The notes beneath the pieces are model-generated. The model did no database searches. It was not told the origin of the DNA and was given only the letters and a program-made list of their open reading frames with translations. This document shows, one piece after another, positions 50,055-59,615 of a DNA stretch of 64,000 nt. The first letter of the stretch is position 1. Each line of letters opens with the position of its first letter. Source of the DNA: Acidobacteriota bacterium (GTDB lineage Bacteria > Acidobacteriota > Blastocatellia > UBA7656). A program made the translations under genes and the position numbers. The stretch lies in assembly GCA_040754075.1 (NCBI GenBank), contig JBFMDH010000001.1:1-64000 (forward strand). Direction: 5' to 3'.

Positions 50055-50099
50055 TGACCGGACGACGAGTTCGTTGAAAAGTTCGCGGCAGCTTTGATT

Positions 50100-50149
50100 G
50101 GCGCATCTTTGGTGTGCGTTGACTTGTCAATGCACACTAAAGATGCGCC
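50100..50149. terminator. 24-bp hairpin between convergent etfA and amidase genes
   Basis: GGCGCATCTTTGGTGTGCGT and on (50100-50123) pairs with 50126-50149 over 24 bp with two G-U wobbles and a 2-base loop. It lacks a T-run. It lies between convergent genes, so a bidirectional termination or mRNA-end role is likely. Confidence 0.55.
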
Positions 50150-50167
50150 GAATTTTCCTCACCTCAC

Positions 50168-51724
50168 TTAGAATTTACCTGCATAAATCGGCGGACGTTT
50201 TTTCGTCCAGGGACGTGCTGCTTCAAGTTCATAAGCCAGTTGCAAAAGCGTCGCTTCGCCACCACGCCAGGCGGCAAACTGACTGCCGATGGGCAAGCCA
50301 GTTGCCGTCCAGTAAAGCGGCACGGACATCGCCGTCGTCCCGGCTGCATTATGCAAAGGGGTGTAGCCAACCGTATCGAGCACACGACTCATCAAGGTGT
50401 TAAATTCCACAGTCGGGCTATGATGACCGAGTTTATAAGGCGGCAGGCGCAAAACCGGGGACAAAATCACATCATAACTTTGAAACATTTTTTCAAGCAC
50501 TGTGGTTGCCGCAGTGAATTCTTGAATCGCTTTTTGCCAGCAATTTTGCACGCCGCGACGTTTTGCGAGTTCCGCAAGTCCCAACGTCCACGGTTCGAGG
50601 TAATCTTCAGGCTTGGCGTCTTTGCCGAACCACTCGGCGACCATCTTCTCGTATTCGACAGTGCCCGATGCCCAAAGTCCGATAAACCCGTCGATGAACG
50701 CTTCGCCATTGAGATCGAGTTTCGCTTCTTCAATTTTATGTCCGAGTCGGTCGCAGAGTTTCGCTGTAGAGGTGATGGCATTCTGCACTTCCGGGTCAGG
50801 CGCTTTACCGTTTAAAGCTTGCGTGACCAGGGCGATTTTCAAGCGTTTCTTTGATGGCGCGGAAACAAACCCGACCGCCGGTAAGTTGGCAATATTTTTA
50901 TTTTCAACGACGCTTAAAAAAGCCGCTGTGTCGCGCACCGAACGACTCAGGCAGAGGTTGGACGAGATGTTTAAAACTTCCAAACCGCCGCCTCTTGAGG
51001 GACTGTTGCCGAGTTCTCGATTGCGCGAAGGCTTCAACCCGAACACGCCGCATTGACTTGCGGGAATGCGAATCGAGCCGCCGCCATCGCTGGCGTGCGC
51101 AAACGGCACGAACCCAGCCGCAACCGCTGCCGCCGTTCCGCCGCTCGACCCGCCCGTGGTGTAGGCAGGATTCCAGGGGTTGCGACTTGCGCCGTACAGA
51201 ACCGGTTCCGTGGTGTCGATGAGTCCCATCTCCGGCGAACTCGTCACCCCTGTGATAATCATTCCCGCCTGCTCCATCGCCTCAACCAGAGGCGAACTGA
51301 CTTTCGCAGCCTTACCGTTTTTCTCAATTAATCTGGCGAACATTCGCGAACCGTTGGTGATACTTGCGTCTTTGTAGGCGATGAGGTTTTTCAGCATCGT
51401 CGGCACCCCGGCAAACCTTCCCTCACCAGCGCCGCGACGCGCCCGGTCGCGGGCTTTTTCAATATCAAAGAGTTTTGGCAAGACGGCATTGAGTTTCGGA
51501 TTGAGGCGCTCGACATGGCGTAGCGCGTCTTCGACGAGTTCAAGCGGTGAGACCTGTTTTTTGCGCACCAGTTCAGCCAGTCCCAGCCCGTCGAAACTCG
51601 CGAATTCCGAAAGTTTCAATTTGGTTTGAGCGGCGCTTGCCTTGACCACCAACAGCGAAGTGTTTGCCGCAGCCATTGAAAAGAGGGCGGCTTGTTTGAT
51701 GAAGTCTCTGCGCGTTTTGTCCAT
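50168..51724 (-). CDS. Tat-exported amidase (amidase signature family)
   Basis: 518 residues. The start has a twin-arginine signal ([20 protein letters not shown]). The Ser-cisSer-Lys triad is visible: Lys in [12 protein letters not shown], cis-Ser and nucleophile Ser in the block [14 protein letters not shown] plus [13 protein letters not shown]. Length fits the family. Members hydrolyse varied amides; the substrate is not predictable. It is convergent with etfA. Confidence 0.92.
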
Positions 51725-51833
51725 ACAAAATCCTTTTTAATTATTCGATTGATGTTTGGTGATTAAAATTTTTGCTCTGCTCTTGGTGAAGGGAGAATAG
51801 TCGTTTGTAATGCCGGTTGACAAGGCTACGGAT

Positions 51834-52523
51834 TTATTTCCACTCAATTTCTACACTTTCATATTTTTCCGTGCCGAGATTTTTTAGAACATGACGCTTG
51901 AGGGGTTCGTGCCAGTTGAAGTCGCCGACCGCGAAACTTTTGGTTTTGGCTTTGCGGTTGTTGTTTTCAATTGCAAGTTCTCCACTGGTAACCGAAACGC
52001 TGAGGCGCGGCAAAACGTGCGCGTGCGCAGCGATGGTTTGACCGGGTTCGATGATGAGGCGATAGACGCGCACTCGTTCGTTTTCCAAAATCAGGGTGTG
52101 ACCGGCGGTTTTTTCGAGAGCGGCTTCCTGCATTGCCGCTTTGGAAACTTTACCGAAAGGCGCGAGAATTTCCGCATCAATAAATCTGAGCGGGGTGTCG
52201 CCGACATTGGTGATGCGATGTGTATAGCCGCCTTTGGCAAAACTCGTCCTGCCGGTTTCCATCGTCGTGAAAACTGCCTCCCGTTGACCGACGGTTTCGG
52301 TTTTGAGTTTCCCGCCGCCGACATTCACCGGCACATTATCGAGGTCGTGCGTATGAAAGAGCGTGGCGTCGCCAATTTTCACCATTGCATCAATCACCCG
52401 CACATAGGGATTTTCAAACATCACTTTATGACGCGGTTCTTTCCCGACCGGCACCGATTGCTGCACAGGAATGAGCAAGCCGACAACGAATAAAAATAGT
52501 TTGGCGATTAAGGGGTTTTTCAT
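51834..52523 (-). CDS. exported double-cupin-like protein
   Basis: 229 residues with an N-terminal signal (KLFLFVVGLLIPVQQS). Two related beta-rich halves are visible: ENPYVRVIDAMVKIGDATLF with HTHDLDN, and ENERVRVYRLIIEPGQTIAA with HAHVLPRLSV. The HxH pairs resemble cupin metal ligands. No enzyme family is recognised. It lies 110 bases upstream of the amidase on the same strand. Confidence 0.72.
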   Translation of the reverse strand: MKNPLIAKLFLFVVGLLIPVQQSVPVGKEPRHKVMFENPYVRVIDAMVKIGDATLFHTHDLDNVPVNVGGGKLKTETVGQREAVFTTMETGRTSFAKGGYTHRITNVGDTPLRFIDAEILAPFGKVSKAAMQEAALEKTAGHTLILENERVRVYRLIIEPGQTIAAHAHVLPRLSVSVTSGELAIENNNRKAKTKSFAVGDFNWHEPLKRHVLKNLGTEKYESVEIEWK

Positions 52524-52562
52524 AGGCGAATGACTTGTTTTTAGTTGATGACTTTTGAAAAC

Positions 52563-52985
52563 TTATGAATCGTTCGCAATCTCATTCAATAACTCAATTG
52601 CTGAGAGAATGCGAACTCCTTCATGTTGTTTCAAATCTAAAAGGTGACTATCGCCGGAAACAATCGCTTCGCAGTTTGCGACAAGCGCACAAGCTAAAAC
52701 CGCATCATCATCCGGGTCAGCCAAAATAACAGGTTCTATCTCATGAGGTTTAACCACAATCGCTAGCGCCGCATATCCTAAAACCAATTCGTGCGCTGTA
52801 ACATTCGCAATTGTGAGTCTCTCGGCAAATTTTTCACGATTCAACACTTCTTCCAGCTCTTCAAGTAAAACGGCGCTGGTGAATAATTCTATTTTTCCGT
52901 TACGGGCAGCATCCAAAACTTGTCGGGGAGCGCCGCGCTAGAACAAACCGGAAATGATGATATTGGTATCGGCTACGATTCGCAT
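52563..52985 (-). pseudogene. PIN-domain toxin interrupted by an amber codon
   Basis: From ATG 52985 the frame reads MRIVADTNIIISGLF, then TAG (52940-52938), then RGAPRQVLDAARNGKIELFT and on to the stop at 52563. The usual family sequence has a Trp (TGG) at the stop position (GLFWRGAP), so a single G-to-A change explains it. The rest (ILADPDDDAVLACALVANCE, IVSGDSHLLDL) keeps the PIN acidic residues. Only a 117-residue fragment starting at Met 52916 lacks the stop, and it would miss the first catalytic Asp. The gene lies four bases after an intact antitoxin gene. It is a dead toxin unless the amber codon is read through or miscalled. Confidence 0.85.
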
Positions 52986-52989
52986 TGAA

Positions 52990-53220
52990 TTAACGCTTTG
53001 ATTGGCGAACGGCAGCAATTTCTGCTTCGACTTCGGCTGCTGTAAGCGGCGGCGTATCTAAATCCGCCAAACGCTCAGCCGCCGCAAAGAGGTTGTCAAC
53101 GCGACGACGTTGGAGTTCGGCGCGAATCAAGGCTTCAATGGATTCGGCAGTCAGCAAGCCGTTAGCTTCCGCCTCACGAGCTAAATTATCAGGCAAAATA
53201 ACCGTCAATTCAGATGACAT
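52990..53220 (-). CDS. antitoxin partner of the broken PIN toxin
   Basis: About 76 residues from ATG 53220 (GGAG eight bases upstream). The start MSSELTVILPDNLAREAEAN and AELQRRRVDNLFAAAERL suggest a short ribbon-helix-helix-like or VapB-type antitoxin with a helical C-terminus (AEVEAEIAAVRQS). Immediately downstream is the PIN gene carrying a stop codon. The antitoxin itself looks intact. Confidence 0.75.
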   Translation of the reverse strand: MSSELTVILPDNLAREAEANGLLTAESIEALIRAELQRRRVDNLFAAAERLADLDTPPLTAAEVEAEIAAVRQSKR

Positions 53221-53422
53221 AGTGATTACTCCATTTTGAAATTCAATCATAATCTCATCCAAATCGAATCACAACTTTGCTTAATAAGCATTTAGCGTAG
53301 GGAAGCAACCTCACAAAACCTGAGCAATGCTTATAAAAATTCCTGATTGAAAGCGTATCACAACCAATAACTAAAAAGTTGCAGAATAAAAATTAGGAGA
53401 ACGGCTTGTTTAATCCACCCCC

Positions 53423-56400
53423 TCAAATAATTCTCCGTGAACGAATTAATTGTTCACGAAGGTAGTATGCTCCTGATGAAGCTGTTTCCACGATAGCATC
53501 AAGCAGCACAAAACAAGACTGATGCATAGCCCTTGATAGCGCCCCAGTTTCATCTACCTGTAAAAATCGCCGGATAGCTCCCTCTAGATAGTATGCAGTG
53601 TTCACCCCTGAAAACAATTGAGTCCCTGTAATTTCTGCCTGGTGTTTTGCTAGGATTTGAATGCCAGTCTCGAAGAAAATTTTAGGAAAGTGATACATAA
53701 GCGAAGCCATCGCCTCAAAGACATCAGCATTTTTTCCTGCATTATTTACAAATTCGAGAATTAATTCTTTTCCCAGAGCAATGTCTTGATTTTCATAATC
53801 TAATTTTTGCCATGGGGCATCAGCGCATAACATACCTCGAATTAATTTTCGACTGCCCTCTTGTCGTCCATAGTCAGAGCGATGCTGCACAGTTTCATTC
53901 GCAATAGTTTGAACTTTTTTAGAAAACTGGTTCCAAAACTCCCAGTACACTTCCTTCTTTTGAGACCTTTCTGTTATGAACGCGATATTCATCAGCAAAT
54001 GGTCAATAAATTCAGGGGCAGTATCACAGCCTTCTCGCAATTGTTCGATAAATGACTGAATAACTGGTTCAGGTAGCTCAAGCAAATAACTGGCAAATCT
54101 ATTTGTGAAAGGTATTCTCAATTCATAGTGAATGTGAATATCATCTTGGGCTCGGTCGGAATAGTGCTTTCTTAACGACGTTTCTGTAATAAAAAAGAGT
54201 GTGAGCATTCGAGACAACAGCACCACATGACTAGGTTCTATTGAACCATCTGGAATCATTAAAGAAGGATTCAATATGAACCACGGGCTATAAGAAAGGA
54301 AGTCTATTTTGTCTATACCATCTGTAGTAAGCGATAAGTCTCCGTTTGCAAGTTGCTCACGAAAACTATTTAGCCATACCCTCAAGTTGGCATCATAAGT
54401 TTCTCCATCGGTATCTGGCGAAAAGTACGCCTCTCTTCTTTGATGAGAATGTTCTACTTCTAATCGTGCATACTCAATTATTCCAAGAATGCATCTTTGG
54501 GCGAATTCAGGGTCTCTTTGCCAAAGATATTCTCTAATGCCATTTGCAATTGCTTGTCTGACCTTCTCATTCGCATGAGTAAGAGCAGTAGCTATGATTG
54601 TTTTGACCAAAAGTTTTTCTTCACCATCTTCAGTATGATCCAGCAAAATCGGTAATAGAGACGCGGCTACGGCTGCACCATCAAGATCAGTTTTGTCTGC
54701 TGCCACAAATTGATCTTGTGTATCTGCATTCGACACAACTGTCTGCAAAATAAATTTCACACACCAGTGTGCATCTTCCTCACTCATCTCATTTGAATGA
54801 TCTCGCAGAAACACTGCTGCTGCCTTAACGATACCGCTATAGTGCATTCTTGCTAAATTATTCCCTGAACCATTCTCAAGTATTTCTAGAAGATTCTTCG
54901 CCTCTGTAAGCGCTTCATCCCAATTAACAAAATATTCTCTATCCAAAGCTTCGCGCCCAAAAATCTTTTCCGACCACAAATATAATTGGGAGAACCGGTT
55001 CATTAATGCTGTTTTTGCCTGTGTTTCTTGTTGTATCTCTTCTAAATCGGCTTCCAAGTTTTTTGGCTTAAAGGTAATCAGAGAATTCTCTTTATCTTCT
55101 TCTGCTTCCCATCCTCGACTATCAATTCGATGAAAACGAAATCGCCAAGCGTCTCCTTGTGGAGCTTTAGAGCGAAGCTCATCTATTACTGCAAACGCCT
55201 CCTGCCTCAAATCTAAAAATTGAAGACGGATAATTAAAGTTTCTAAATGTTCTCTTCGCCAAGGACGTAATGCTGCTTTGCGCCTTTCTTCCGCATAAAG
55301 ATCGGCAAACGGGCGCTGAAATCCAGATGCAAACCAATTGATCTCATTGCCCCCACGCTCATGAACGATGCGTTCTATGTCCAAGTCATATAGCTCAGGC
55401 GTTCGTAAGAGCGGTAGTGCAGCTTTCCAAAGTTTATTTGGAAAACCTGTTGCTACAGAAACTAACACCGCTGTAGGCATTACCGAATTGCTGTTACGCA
55501 GGATGTAATCAAACAAATATTCCAAAATTTTTGGTGACTCGGAATACTCAGCGAGATTGATCAGATAGTTCTCCAATGCCATTAAAGCCGATTGGAGTAA
55601 ATAAGGAAGCACAGAATGACCGCGATAACCTACCCACAAACGCCCTGAGCAATATTGTTTAACTGCTGTCTGGTCGTCTAGTTGAATTTCTATTTGCTTG
55701 GCGCTGACGTCCTCTTCTTTTATAAGCATCGGTGAGTAACGATTATGAGAATCCAAAGTAGAACGGGCGTATTTTTCTGCCGTAAGGTTAAGTAGTTGAA
55801 TTATGAAATCTATTCCTTTCCGTGGGTGAAAACGTAAAAGGTGTTGAAACGGTCCTTTGGCTCCGCTCGCTGGAAAAAATTCATTTCTATAGAGATGGAG
55901 ACCAAAATATTCTTCCACCCCTAAGTGCATCCCTCTCCAAGCTGTATCCTCGTTTTGAGATTCGGCAACTAACCATTCGTGAAAAGCAAATTTAATCAGG
56001 GTGTCAGGAATTTGTTTGCATAAAAAAACCGTTTCAATACTTTCTAACGCAACCTTACAAAATTCTTGAACATAGTGGGGGCGGCGTTGTTCATCGTTGG
56101 TTTTAAACACATCCGTATTTAGTAATTCGTTAAACTCGTTCTCTATAGCTGAAACAGTTCTGATAATAACTCTTATTACTTTCTTGCGATTGCCATCATC
56201 TCGATATGAATCTTTAAAATAATTAAGCAGGTAAAGTCCTAAAAGACCTGCTTCGCGGGCAATTGCTGGTAAATCCTCCTCAAGATGAATGGAAGAAGCC
56301 CATTCATCAAGTACCGCTATTATATGTGGCACTAATGATGTTGAAACGCTTTCTCTATTCTCAAATAGAAAGCGAATAACTGCATCCCACCCATGTCCAA

Positions 56401-58576
56401 ATGGCTTGAGGAATAAGGTATCCAATACATTTTGTGCTTTATTGCTGCCTGACAACTGCTTGATTAAATCTTGATCGGGGGTTTTGCAGGATATACGAAG
56501 AATAAAACAGAATCGCTTTAAGAGTTCGCCTTCACTTTCTAAAAGCTGATCTCTTAGTTCTTCAAGAAAACTATCTGGAGTTTGACCCAATAGCACGGCA
56601 GAAATAGTTTCATCTTGCCAGTATCTTTGAATTTCATGACTTTTAAGGATGGCAAAAATGAGATCATTGACGTTGTCGCTATATTTCAATCTCTGATGTA
56701 GCCATAAACGGAATGCTCGATTTATAGCAGGTTCATCACCTATTGCATCAAGAAACTTAGCCATATTTCCAGAGGTTTGTTGGTAGGCGTGTTCAATATA
56801 TCGTTCAAGCGCCCAGTCTTCCAGAACGTCATGCGCCGGACTAACTAATCCATTGGTCGCACGGCGTATTAAGTTATCTTCTTCAAGCTTTAGCAAGGTT
56901 TCGGAATCAAAATTTTCTTCGGGAACTCCATAAACCATTTGCTTTGCTCTTAATACGGCAACCTCAATAAAAACCTGTTTTCTTTTTAACGGCAGTCCTT
57001 CAGTTCGTATCTGTTCTCTTGCAATAATATTTCTCCAAACAGCTTCTCGGAATTCTTTTTCACCATCTCCACTTGAAAATTCTATTCCTGTCTCTGAGAC
57101 TCTATATGCCAATTCTGCAATAAATGGATTCTTGAGTAATGGACTCAATGAGGAGTTCTCAGCAATTGTCTTTAGTGGCTCAATTTTTTCGCAAAGCTGC
57201 TGGACTTCATGATCATCGAAGTTATCAATTGTTATTGAAGAATGAGTGACGCCAGATGGTTGAAGAAAATTAAACATTACCTGTTGATACGCATAATCAC
57301 GACCTGTCGCAATGATAGTCCAGCCTAGATGTTTATTGAGAAAATGAAGTAAATCAGTAAATGCCGTTGAATGCTCCAATTCAAGTAGTTTTTCAATAGA
57401 CTCAATCAGTAAATATCTTTTGGGCATCAAAGCAAAACCAGCTTCAATATCTCCAATGGAGTTTTCCAAACCCATGGACGAAAACACATTATCAAGGTGA
57501 GCTTTATCAAGGTCTTCTGTACGAAGGCAAAATACTGGATTACGATCAGCCATATATTCGGAAAACTCTCGAACGACACTGGATTTCCCGCACCCACGCG
57601 CACCTGAAATAAATACAAATTTTGAGCTTTCGCTCGCCTCAAGCAACCGCGACAAAATCGCTGGTCTCTTAATGTGTACCCCGCCAATATCCATTCTGAT
57701 GCCATCAATGATGTATTCCCCATGTTCTTTAATTCTTTTTAGATCAGATTCCCATTTCTGGTTTTTTCTTGTATCAAATAAATTACGGATGTCCTGTGGT
57801 AAGGTTTCTAAAGTAATGGTTCCTGCATTCTGATTGGCTGATTGGACAGCATCAAGAATTCTTGACCAAAGGGGTAGAGGATTTTCATGAGAATACTGAG
57901 CAATTAACGATTGGATAAGAGACAAAGTGTTTCCAGATTCTAAATCTAGGTCATATCCAAGTAAGTGAAAAGATTTCAAAAACTCCCAAAGCTGTTTATC
58001 CGAGATAGCAATGTTGCCATTTGCTTTATTCAAAAGTGACCTAAAAACTTTTAGCTTTGCTCTTTTGGGGTCACTACTGAAATAATCTGTATTTACTTTG
58101 TTCAGAAATTCTATTTCATCTTCAGAGTGTCTTGCCCATTCTAACAGCGGGCGCACATTGTTGATATCTGTAGAGCTTAAAGGTCCCGTGATAAGGGCTA
58201 AAACATCATTGGTTGCATTGAAAACATTTGAATCATTAAAGTCATTCCAAGCTGCTTGAATAACTGTACAAAAAGTTTCGTTTCCCTCATTGATACTAAT
58301 GTCATGTTTTATTTGACCTAGCAACTTTGCTTCATTTTGTGTTTTAGAATCCTTCGTAAAGACAATAAAGTCGTCAGTATTAAAACCTGCATAACGACCT
58401 TGTAGTTTAAGCTTAGTAATTGACCAAGGTGGTAGGCCGGGTGACACTCGTCCTGTTAGCATTAAGACCGTAAACGCTGCTTGAATTCGCGTTTCAAAAT
58501 TCGAGCCTCCGCCTCCGGTAGAAAACGGATTGCTTTGTTGTGTTGGTGAGTTGATCATTTCATTCCGACTTGTCAT
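53423..58576 (-). CDS. nuclease-STAND-like NTPase, candidate Avs-type anti-phage protein
   Basis: A single 1717-residue protein. Residues about 20-165 look like a Cap4/Mrr-type PD-(D/E)XK nuclease: a Gly-rich start, SNFETR (E28), FNTDDF (D68/D69) and LGQIKHD (Q88, K90), with ALITGPLSSTDI after it. Residues about 300-520 are a P-loop NTPase with Walker A SGARGCGKSS (K331), a Walker-B-like RYLLIESIEKLL and IIATGRDYAY as sensor strand. Some 1150 mostly helical residues follow without obvious repeats. Nuclease, NTPase and long helical sensor in that order is the plan of Avs/STAND immune proteins, which detect conserved phage proteins and then cut DNA. The DNA is AT-richer than neighbours, and broken TA and Rpn genes flank it. 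The specific Avs class is not assignable by eye. Confidence 0.75.
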   Translation of the reverse strand: MTSRNEMINSPTQQSNPFSTGGGGSNFETRIQAAFTVLMLTGRVSPGLPPWSITKLKLQGRYAGFNTDDFIVFTKDSKTQNEAKLLGQIKHDISINEGNETFCTVIQAAWNDFNDSNVFNATNDVLALITGPLSSTDINNVRPLLEWARHSEDEIEFLNKVNTDYFSSDPKRAKLKVFRSLLNKANGNIAISDKQLWEFLKSFHLLGYDLDLESGNTLSLIQSLIAQYSHENPLPLWSRILDAVQSANQNAGTITLETLPQDIRNLFDTRKNQKWESDLKRIKEHGEYIIDGIRMDIGGVHIKRPAILSRLLEASESSKFVFISGARGCGKSSVVREFSEYMADRNPVFCLRTEDLDKAHLDNVFSSMGLENSIGDIEAGFALMPKRYLLIESIEKLLELEHSTAFTDLLHFLNKHLGWTIIATGRDYAYQQVMFNFLQPSGVTHSSITIDNFDDHEVQQLCEKIEPLKTIAENSSLSPLLKNPFIAELAYRVSETGIEFSSGDGEKEFREAVWRNIIAREQIRTEGLPLKRKQVFIEVAVLRAKQMVYGVPEENFDSETLLKLEEDNLIRRATNGLVSPAHDVLEDWALERYIEHAYQQTSGNMAKFLDAIGDEPAINRAFRLWLHQRLKYSDNVNDLIFAILKSHEIQRYWQDETISAVLLGQTPDSFLEELRDQLLESEGELLKRFCFILRISCKTPDQDLIKQLSGSNKAQNVLDTLFLKPFGHGWDAVIRFLFENRESVSTSLVPHIIAVLDEWASSIHLEEDLPAIAREAGLLGLYLLNYFKDSYRDDGNRKKVIRVIIRTVSAIENEFNELLNTDVFKTNDEQRRPHYVQEFCKVALESIETVFLCKQIPDTLIKFAFHEWLVAESQNEDTAWRGMHLGVEEYFGLHLYRNEFFPASGAKGPFQHLLRFHPRKGIDFIIQLLNLTAEKYARSTLDSHNRYSPMLIKEEDVSAKQIEIQLDDQTAVKQYCSGRLWVGYRGHSVLPYLLQSALMALENYLINLAEYSESPKILEYLFDYILRNSNSVMPTAVLVSVATGFPNKLWKAALPLLRTPELYDLDIERIVHERGGNEINWFASGFQRPFADLYAEERRKAALRPWRREHLETLIIRLQFLDLRQEAFAVIDELRSKAPQGDAWRFRFHRIDSRGWEAEEDKENSLITFKPKNLEADLEEIQQETQAKTALMNRFSQLYLWSEKIFGREALDREYFVNWDEALTEAKNLLEILENGSGNNLARMHYSGIVKAAAVFLRDHSNEMSEEDAHWCVKFILQTVVSNADTQDQFVAADKTDLDGAAVAASLLPILLDHTEDGEEKLLVKTIIATALTHANEKVRQAIANGIREYLWQRDPEFAQRCILGIIEYARLEVEHSHQRREAYFSPDTDGETYDANLRVWLNSFREQLANGDLSLTTDGIDKIDFLSYSPWFILNPSLMIPDGSIEPSHVVLLSRMLTLFFITETSLRKHYSDRAQDDIHIHYELRIPFTNRFASYLLELPEPVIQSFIEQLREGCDTAPEFIDHLLMNIAFITERSQKKEVYWEFWNQFSKKVQTIANETVQHRSDYGRQEGSRKLIRGMLCADAPWQKLDYENQDIALGKELILEFVNNAGKNADVFEAMASLMYHFPKIFFETGIQILAKHQAEITGTQLFSGVNTAYYLEGAIRRFLQVDETGALSRAMHQSCFVLLDAIVETASSGAYYLREQLIRSRRII

Positions 58577-58713
58577 TTGCAGGTTGAGCGGATAATCTCA
58601 ACGCTTTCCAAAGGCACGATTTTATTACTCGGTTCAGCGGTTGTTATAGGCAATTAGTCGGTTCGGCGTCAATCGGTTTTGTCTGAATTTGCGGTTGCAT
58701 CATTATCACTTCA

Positions 58714-59535
58714 ATGCGTTACGATACGGTCATTAAAAAGATATTTCAGGGATTGCCGCGAAAGCTTCTGCAAATTCTTACCGGAAGCGAAGCCGAAGCG
58801 TTACTCACGGTCGAGTATCCTTCCGTACAGATGCGGCGTCCCGATTTTGTCGCGCGACTGAGGGATGGGCGCATCCTCCATCTGGAATTTCAAAGTCATA
58901 ATGATGCGGAAATGCGCTGGCGAATGCTGGAGTATTATTTGCTCATTCGCACACTGTTCGGGCAACCGCCATTTCAGGTAGTCATCTATTTGGGCAAAGA
59001 GTTGATGAATTTTTCGACAAGGGTCAGAGATAACCGGTTGTCATATCGCTATGATGCGATTGATGTACGCGAGATTGATAGCGAGGTGTTACTGGCAAGC
59101 GATTCGGTCGAGGATAACTTGCTCTCGATTCTTTGCCATAATGGCAGCAGCGTGCAAAGCATTCGCAAAATTCTCAGAAATGCAAAATCTCTGCCTGAGA
59201 AAAAGTTTTTGGATAATGTGGAGAAGTTGCTGATATTATCAGGACTGAGAAATGTCGAAGAAGTCGTCATCAGGGAGGTAAAACGAATGCCGGTGGCAAT
59301 CGATTTAATGGAAAATAAAGTCATTCGCAAATATTTTGAACAAGGCGAACAATCAGGCATGCGTAAGGGGGTACAAAAAGGCGAAGCCGCGATGGTGCGT
59401 TATATGCTCGAAGCGCGTTTTGGTAAATTGCCGAATTGGGCAAAAGAAAAAATCGAAAGCGCAAATAAAACCACCCTGAAAAAATGGGGCGTGAGACTGT
59501 TGAAAGCCAAAACCCTCGAAGAAGTGTTGCTATAG
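58714..59535 (+). CDS. Rpn family nuclease / PD-(D/E)XK transposase-like protein
   Basis: 273 residues. RRPDFVARLRDGRILHLEFQ gives the PD...ExQ nuclease core, early in the protein, as in Rpn (recombination-promoting nuclease)/DUF4351 proteins. The region YRYDAIDVREIDSEVLLAS and the Gln/Gly-rich EQSGMRKGVQKGEAAMVRYM leading to a C-terminal helical DUF4351-like domain also fit. These proteins promote RecA-independent recombination and often sit in mobile or defence regions. It is divergent from the Avs-like gene, 137 bases away. Confidence 0.87.
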   Translation: MRYDTVIKKIFQGLPRKLLQILTGSEAEALLTVEYPSVQMRRPDFVARLRDGRILHLEFQSHNDAEMRWRMLEYYLLIRTLFGQPPFQVVIYLGKELMNFSTRVRDNRLSYRYDAIDVREIDSEVLLASDSVEDNLLSILCHNGSSVQSIRKILRNAKSLPEKKFLDNVEKLLILSGLRNVEEVVIREVKRMPVAIDLMENKVIRKYFEQGEQSGMRKGVQKGEAAMVRYMLEARFGKLPNWAKEKIESANKTTLKKWGVRLLKAKTLEEVLL

Positions 59536-59615
59536 AATTTGCCTGTGTATCAATGGATGGTCATAACTTTAAGTAGGTAATGTTCGGAGTGAAATTCTTG
59601 TCGAGTTGAAAGGTT

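Follow-up and report, generated by a model that had tools for sequence, protein, structure and literature searches.

An Avs4-like gene with a different predicted nuclease effector in an Acidobacteriota genome

A single gene of 1717 codons in an Acidobacteriota genome very probably encodes a one-protein anti-phage abortive-infection system of the Avs (AVAST) kind, which belongs to a sister lineage of Avs4. The gene lies in a stretch of 64,000 nt (from here: the window; GenBank assembly GCA_040754075.1, contig JBFMDH010000001.1, positions 1 to 64,000). Judged by homology, its NTPase and sensor are Avs4-like and not new. The novelty appears to lie in the variant, in which this sister lineage carries another nuclease effector than EcAvs4.

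The open reading frame is located on the minus strand, starts with ATG and is open throughout. The genome contains one copy of this Avs4-like gene. The following parts were assigned:

53423..58576, minus strand: Avs4-like gene, 1717 aa, with PD-(D/E)XK nuclease, STAND NTPase and large C-terminal sensor (PADLOC, NCBIfam and 8dgf matches)
57782..58576, minus strand: effector domain, residues 1-265; the border to the NTPase is approximate (Avs4 models start at 264-278; the domain is common to non-Avs4 proteins until ~267)
58187..58525, minus strand: PD-(D/E)XK core, residues 18-130 (secondary-structure order in the AlphaFold model; Foldseek)
58493..58495, minus strand: E28, candidate catalytic residue (78/79 relatives)
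58370..58375, minus strand: D68-D69, candidate metal-binding residues (79/79 relatives each)
58307..58315, minus strand: Q88-x-K90, candidate catalytic QxK (Q88 in 77/79, K90 in 78/79 relatives)
56777..57688, minus strand: STAND-type NTPase and winged-helix part, residues 297-600 (weak Pfam AAA_16 / nSTAND3; the 8dgf alignment starts at 297)
57581..57604, minus strand: Walker A GARGCGKS, residues 325-332, with K331 (alignment of relatives)
57398..57412, minus strand: Walker B LLIES, residues 389-393, with E392 in place of the D of EcAvs4 (alignment of relatives)
56807..56833, minus strand: HDVLEDWAL motif, residues 582-590, end of the NTPase module (presumed MHD-like position; kept in relatives)
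53426..56776, minus strand: C-terminal sensor, residues 601-1717 (aligns with EcAvs4 up to its final residues)

This arrangement is that of the Avs/AVAST superfamily, with an N-terminal effector, a central STAND NTPase with Walker A and B motifs and a C-terminal sensor in one protein, and layout and homology alike place the protein in this superfamily. An earlier note, made from the letters of the DNA, had proposed such a single-gene Avs-type plan; the domain matches, residues and fold described here bear it out.

Avs4 was the top match in every library searched (PADLOC, NCBIfam, PDB). The PADLOC Avs4 model (PDLC02169) matched residues 278-1711 with E=1.4e-196 and the NCBIfam model (NF041815) residues 264-1710 with E=1.5e-219. 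However, the score of 731.7 bits for the latter was only about half of the NCBI equivalog cut-off of 1500 bits. Using phmmer, residues 297-1710 aligned to EcAvs4 (PDB 8DGF; E=2e-98) at ~25% identity. The P-loop announced by the earlier note is intact (ISGARGCGKS, with K331), and the IESIEK Walker B that it named, at residues 391-396, aligns with VDSAEK in EcAvs4. All aligned clade members have E as the acidic residue of this motif; EcAvs4 and the two proteins closest to it have D. A motif of the form HDVxEDWAL is, with small changes, common to EcAvs4 and the aligned relatives. The last ~140 residues of the sensor are 60-62% identical within the clade of the window protein but only 15-25% identical to EcAvs4.

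The suggestion of the earlier note that the protein may be a new class, considered here as a new class of STAND sensor, has to be given up, as residues ~264-1711 match Avs4 end to end and the Walker B is the Avs4 form with E for D. Assignment as a plain Avs4 was likewise rejected. The equivalog score, the effector and the tree position were all tested, and each of them departs from Avs4, so that we do not file the protein as an Avs4 equivalog. It shares with EcAvs4 a STAND NTPase and a whole sensor homologous over ~1430 residues, in a single gene with the effector at the N-terminus. It differs in the effector, which is unrelated at the profile level and ~100 residues longer, in the overall identity of ~25%, in the Walker B residue, in its separate clade and in the halved equivalog score. 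The most fitting description is an Avs4-like sister lineage whose predicted nuclease is of the Cap4/LmuA fold.

The effector domain is predicted to fold as a PD-(D/E)XK nuclease. An AlphaFold model built from the alignment of 79 relatives reached a mean pLDDT of 89.3 and a pTM of 0.83. Its core consists of a helix (18-40), three strands (52-57, 70-75, 82-90), a helix (100-113) and a further strand (125-130). The nuclease fold at residues 20-165, on which the earlier note had staked its reading, was looked for by AlphaFold and Foldseek and is present in the predicted structure. The catalytic residues it had guessed (E28, D68/69, QxK88-90) sit at the usual PD-(D/E)XK positions of this core and are kept in 77-79 of the 79 aligned relatives. 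In the Foldseek comparison the nearest solved structures were all defence nucleases: LmuA (9hr5, E=1.2e-5) and Avs3 (8dgc, E=1.3e-5), followed by Hachiman (8zue, E=1.8e-4) and Cap4 (6wan, E=3.6e-4). With TM-scores of ~0.5, the effector shares the fold class of LmuA, Avs3 and Cap4 but is not their close kin. The likeness to the Lamassu LmuA, Avs3 N-terminal and Cap4 nucleases lies in the PD-(D/E)XK fold (E ~1e-5 to 4e-4), whereas sequence identities are 9-13%, the sensors are others and the window domain has no Pfam match.

No model in Pfam, NCBIfam or PADLOC matched the effector domain of the window. As for the profile comparison with Avs and DUF4297 that the earlier note had advised, Avs4 was matched in PADLOC and NCBIfam, and the effector domain in 20 members had no Pfam match to the curated Cap4/DUF4297 family. 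PDB sequence searches with the effector, both single-sequence and profile, returned nothing meaningful; a match of the effector query to IFT139 (0.005) was dismissed as a repeat-region match. Against residues 1-205 of EcAvs4, the N-terminal nuclease of which we take to be Mrr-like, hhalign gave a probability of 0.1%, a weak negative given the single-sequence template. Among the PADLOC candidates, the N-terminal parts of PDC-M54A and DUF626_VIII match distant members of the window effector family, but the window protein itself is unmatched by them and their remaining parts differ.

A profile search of genome contigs using a three-row effector alignment as query yielded 80 loci, while the full-length protein as query gave no match in the genome contigs. 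The effector was encoded on Avs4-like proteins of ~1700 aa at about 18 of the 80 loci, two of them split (L067, L133), and 49 loci encoded full-length members of a second architecture (from here: type B). Carriers of the Avs4-like form were found in cyanobacteria, Paenibacillus, Bacillus, a Nitrospirales, a Brocadiaceae, Desulfobacteraceae, Clostridia and gammaproteobacteria such as Aliivibrio fischeri. In a quick tree of NTPase plus sensor, with long branches outside the clade, the window protein fell into a clade of 16 with an SH-aLRT support of 100, and EcAvs4 and two relatives formed a separate clade of 3, also with a support of 100. The clade of 16 combines the effector with Avs4-like NTPase and sensor in at least six phyla, with members from Acidobacteriota, Cyanobacteriota, Nitrospirota, Bacillota, Planctomycetota, Desulfobacteraceae and gammaproteobacteria. 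With 61-62% identity across the full length, the closest protein comes from a Pyrinomonadaceae genome (L016, identical with L069) of the same class as that of the window. The distribution is patchy, with any match in 11 of the 396 genomes of the phylum sample. A family search of 339 genomes of the Microcoleus phylum gave no further Avs4, and the phage collection no match. Scanning was done for the surroundings of the relatives alone; their neighbours include Type I methyltransferase and specificity subunits, Type IV restriction and MADS proteins.

The window effector family is also joined to other C-termini, including those of plasmid- and prophage-borne proteins; Avs proteins are known to exchange their effectors. 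A literature search, the coverage of which did not extend to key Avs papers, returned no paper on a window-type effector with Avs4. Several further combinations were seen. On a Haliscomenobacter plasmid (L031:3200-8173) an Avs4-like NTPase-sensor carries a trypsin-like front, which also matches the LmuA and Avs2 models; the gene adjoins those for a nucleotidyltransferase and a SLATT protein. Six more distant STAND proteins of ~1700-1800 aa (L020, L024, L032, L033, L039, L040) possess divergent forms of the window effector; some of their N-termini match PADLOC DUF626_VIII or PDC-M54A, and their sensors are mostly not alignable with Avs4. In Polynucleobacter, a 470-aa protein (L118:2237-3649) continues from a window-type nuclease domain into a region weakly similar to a Type II restriction enzyme model (E=0.006).

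In type B, a nuclease about 45-58% identical to that of the window heads a protein of ~1180 aa, which occurs in many bacterial phyla and also in archaea (Methanosarcinales, Methanocalculus). All 56 full-length C-termini belong to one family, and none contains a Walker A motif. The C-terminus of ~900 aa is predicted to form an all-helical alpha-solenoid (pLDDT 88.6) that is HEAT-like in general terms only. Type B representatives, e.g. E. coli WP_044867624.1 and the Enterobacter protein (L087), thus share the nuclease domain with the window protein and differ by having no NTPase and a C-terminus unrelated to Avs4. The type B C-termini gave no match in Pfam, NCBIfam or PADLOC among the representatives scanned, and no sequence match in the PDB. 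Type B occurs in 7 of 5426 E. coli genomes, where it is annotated as 'hypothetical protein', and on six viral contigs. In the two E. coli regions read, it adjoins the tail-fibre genes of a lambdoid prophage, a position typical of prophage defence cargo, which makes type B a promising second family of candidate defence genes. It is likely an undescribed single-gene defence family. Type B loci include L087:7974-11522 (Enterobacter), L156:9007-12549 and L157:9007-12549 (E. coli), L035:7010-10573 (Shewanella plasmid) and L139:7983-11543 (Methanosarcinales). On a plasmid, type B adjoins Abi/superinfection-exclusion genes.

In the window, the Avs4-like gene belongs to a segment with the following additional features:

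50055..59615, strand not applicable: 9.56-kb insertion between etfA and etf-QO (these genes are adjacent in 4 genomes of the same family)
52563..53262, minus strand: PIN toxin ORF with an in-frame stop and presumed antitoxin (90 aa), a decayed TA pair (PIN_3 1.1e-13 from profile position 26; TIGR00305)
58714..59535, plus strand: Rpn-like nuclease gene, 273 aa, a weakly assigned, divergent neighbour (TIGR01784 E=9.7e-6, under its cut-off)

Besides the Avs4-like gene, the PIN pair and the Rpn-like gene, the insertion carries genes for an amidase and a cupin protein. In four genomes from the same family, fabF-etfB-etfA-etfQO form an unbroken row, with an etfA-etfQO gap of roughly 80-125 bp. The 9.56-kb segment is an acquired insertion, and these four relatives represent empty sites. 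Direct repeats at its ends were none of note (≤10 bp). A strong inverted repeat at 50100-50145, just past etfA at the left end of the insertion, resembles a terminator hairpin. The surroundings had been described correctly in the earlier note. The GC content is 38-42% at 53-59 kb compared with about 50% around it, as expected from the AT-richer DNA it reported, and the housekeeping genes on both sides are etfB/etfA and etf-QO. Its broken TA is accurate, as the toxin ORF is interrupted by an in-frame stop, and its Rpn nuclease was recovered, if weakly, as the Rpn-like ORF.

Avs1-4 possess nuclease effectors and mediate altruistic death, triggered by the terminase (Avs1-3) or the portal protein (Avs4) of the phage (PMC12931631, PMC12724215). 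By analogy with Avs4, which recognises the portal protein (PMC12724215), the C-terminal sensor (~600-1717) of the window protein would bind a phage packaging protein that is conserved and is produced inside the cell. Binding would free the STAND NTPase (297-600), which would oligomerise with ATP at K331 and gather the N-terminal PD-(D/E)XK domains (E28, D68/D69, Q88-x-K90) into an active form. The nucleases would then cut DNA indiscriminately and the cell would die before phage release. The portal is the somewhat favoured trigger, because the sensor aligns end to end with EcAvs4, the last ~140 residues excepted in identity. These residues, conserved in the clade and diverged from EcAvs4, imply that the phage ligand may differ from that of EcAvs4.

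It is possible, though rather doubtful, that the same machine with the same outcome recognises another phage protein in place of the portal, such as the large terminase or an early protein of unknown identity. The fully supported clade apart from EcAvs4, the clade-specific conservation of the diverged far C-terminus, the missed equivalog score and the precedent of Avs5, related proteins able to use another trigger (PMC12931631), would agree with this, but the sensor aligns with EcAvs4 over its entire length. Extending the non-portal trigger to a distinct Avs type, with an undescribed PD-(D/E)XK family that also heads the NTPase-free type B as a second unreported single-gene defence, makes a combined proposal that we regard as unlikely.

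For an Avs4-like abortive-infection gene we count the Avs4 homology, the near-invariant residues, the predicted defence-nuclease fold, the multi-phylum clade, the insertion in the etf operon, the AT-rich DNA, the restriction and MADS genes near the relatives and the published nuclease-driven death by Avs1-4 with the portal as Avs4 trigger; against it stand the ~25% identity, the missed equivalog cut-off, the diverged C-terminus, the TM-scores of ~0.5 and the Walker B E instead of D. The metabolic genes as immediate chromosomal flanks could be taken to indicate a STAND protein of stress-induced or developmental cell death or of DNA maintenance that shares the Avs plan by chance. This is very improbable in view of Avs4 as top match in every library, the patchy spread (11/396 genomes), the conserved operon split by the insertion and the reuse of the effector in plasmid- and prophage-borne proteins. 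An inactive copy decaying within a decayed island is harder still to credit: the adjoining PIN toxin has an in-frame stop and the ORFs of two relatives in other places (L067, L133) are split, but the gene has 1717 open codons, all catalytic and Walker residues and the length of its relatives.

The gene indicates that Avs4-type sensing is not bound to one nuclease, since a globally spread lineage carries a different effector. A search that relies on the EcAvs4 equivalog cut-off overlooks this lineage because Avs4-type sensing is paired there with a different effector. The lineage also allows one to ask cleanly whether the phage trigger goes with the sensor or with the lineage. Moreover, the trail of the effector ends at an uncharacterised family of nuclease-solenoid proteins, which is widespread and in E. 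coli has members borne on prophages.
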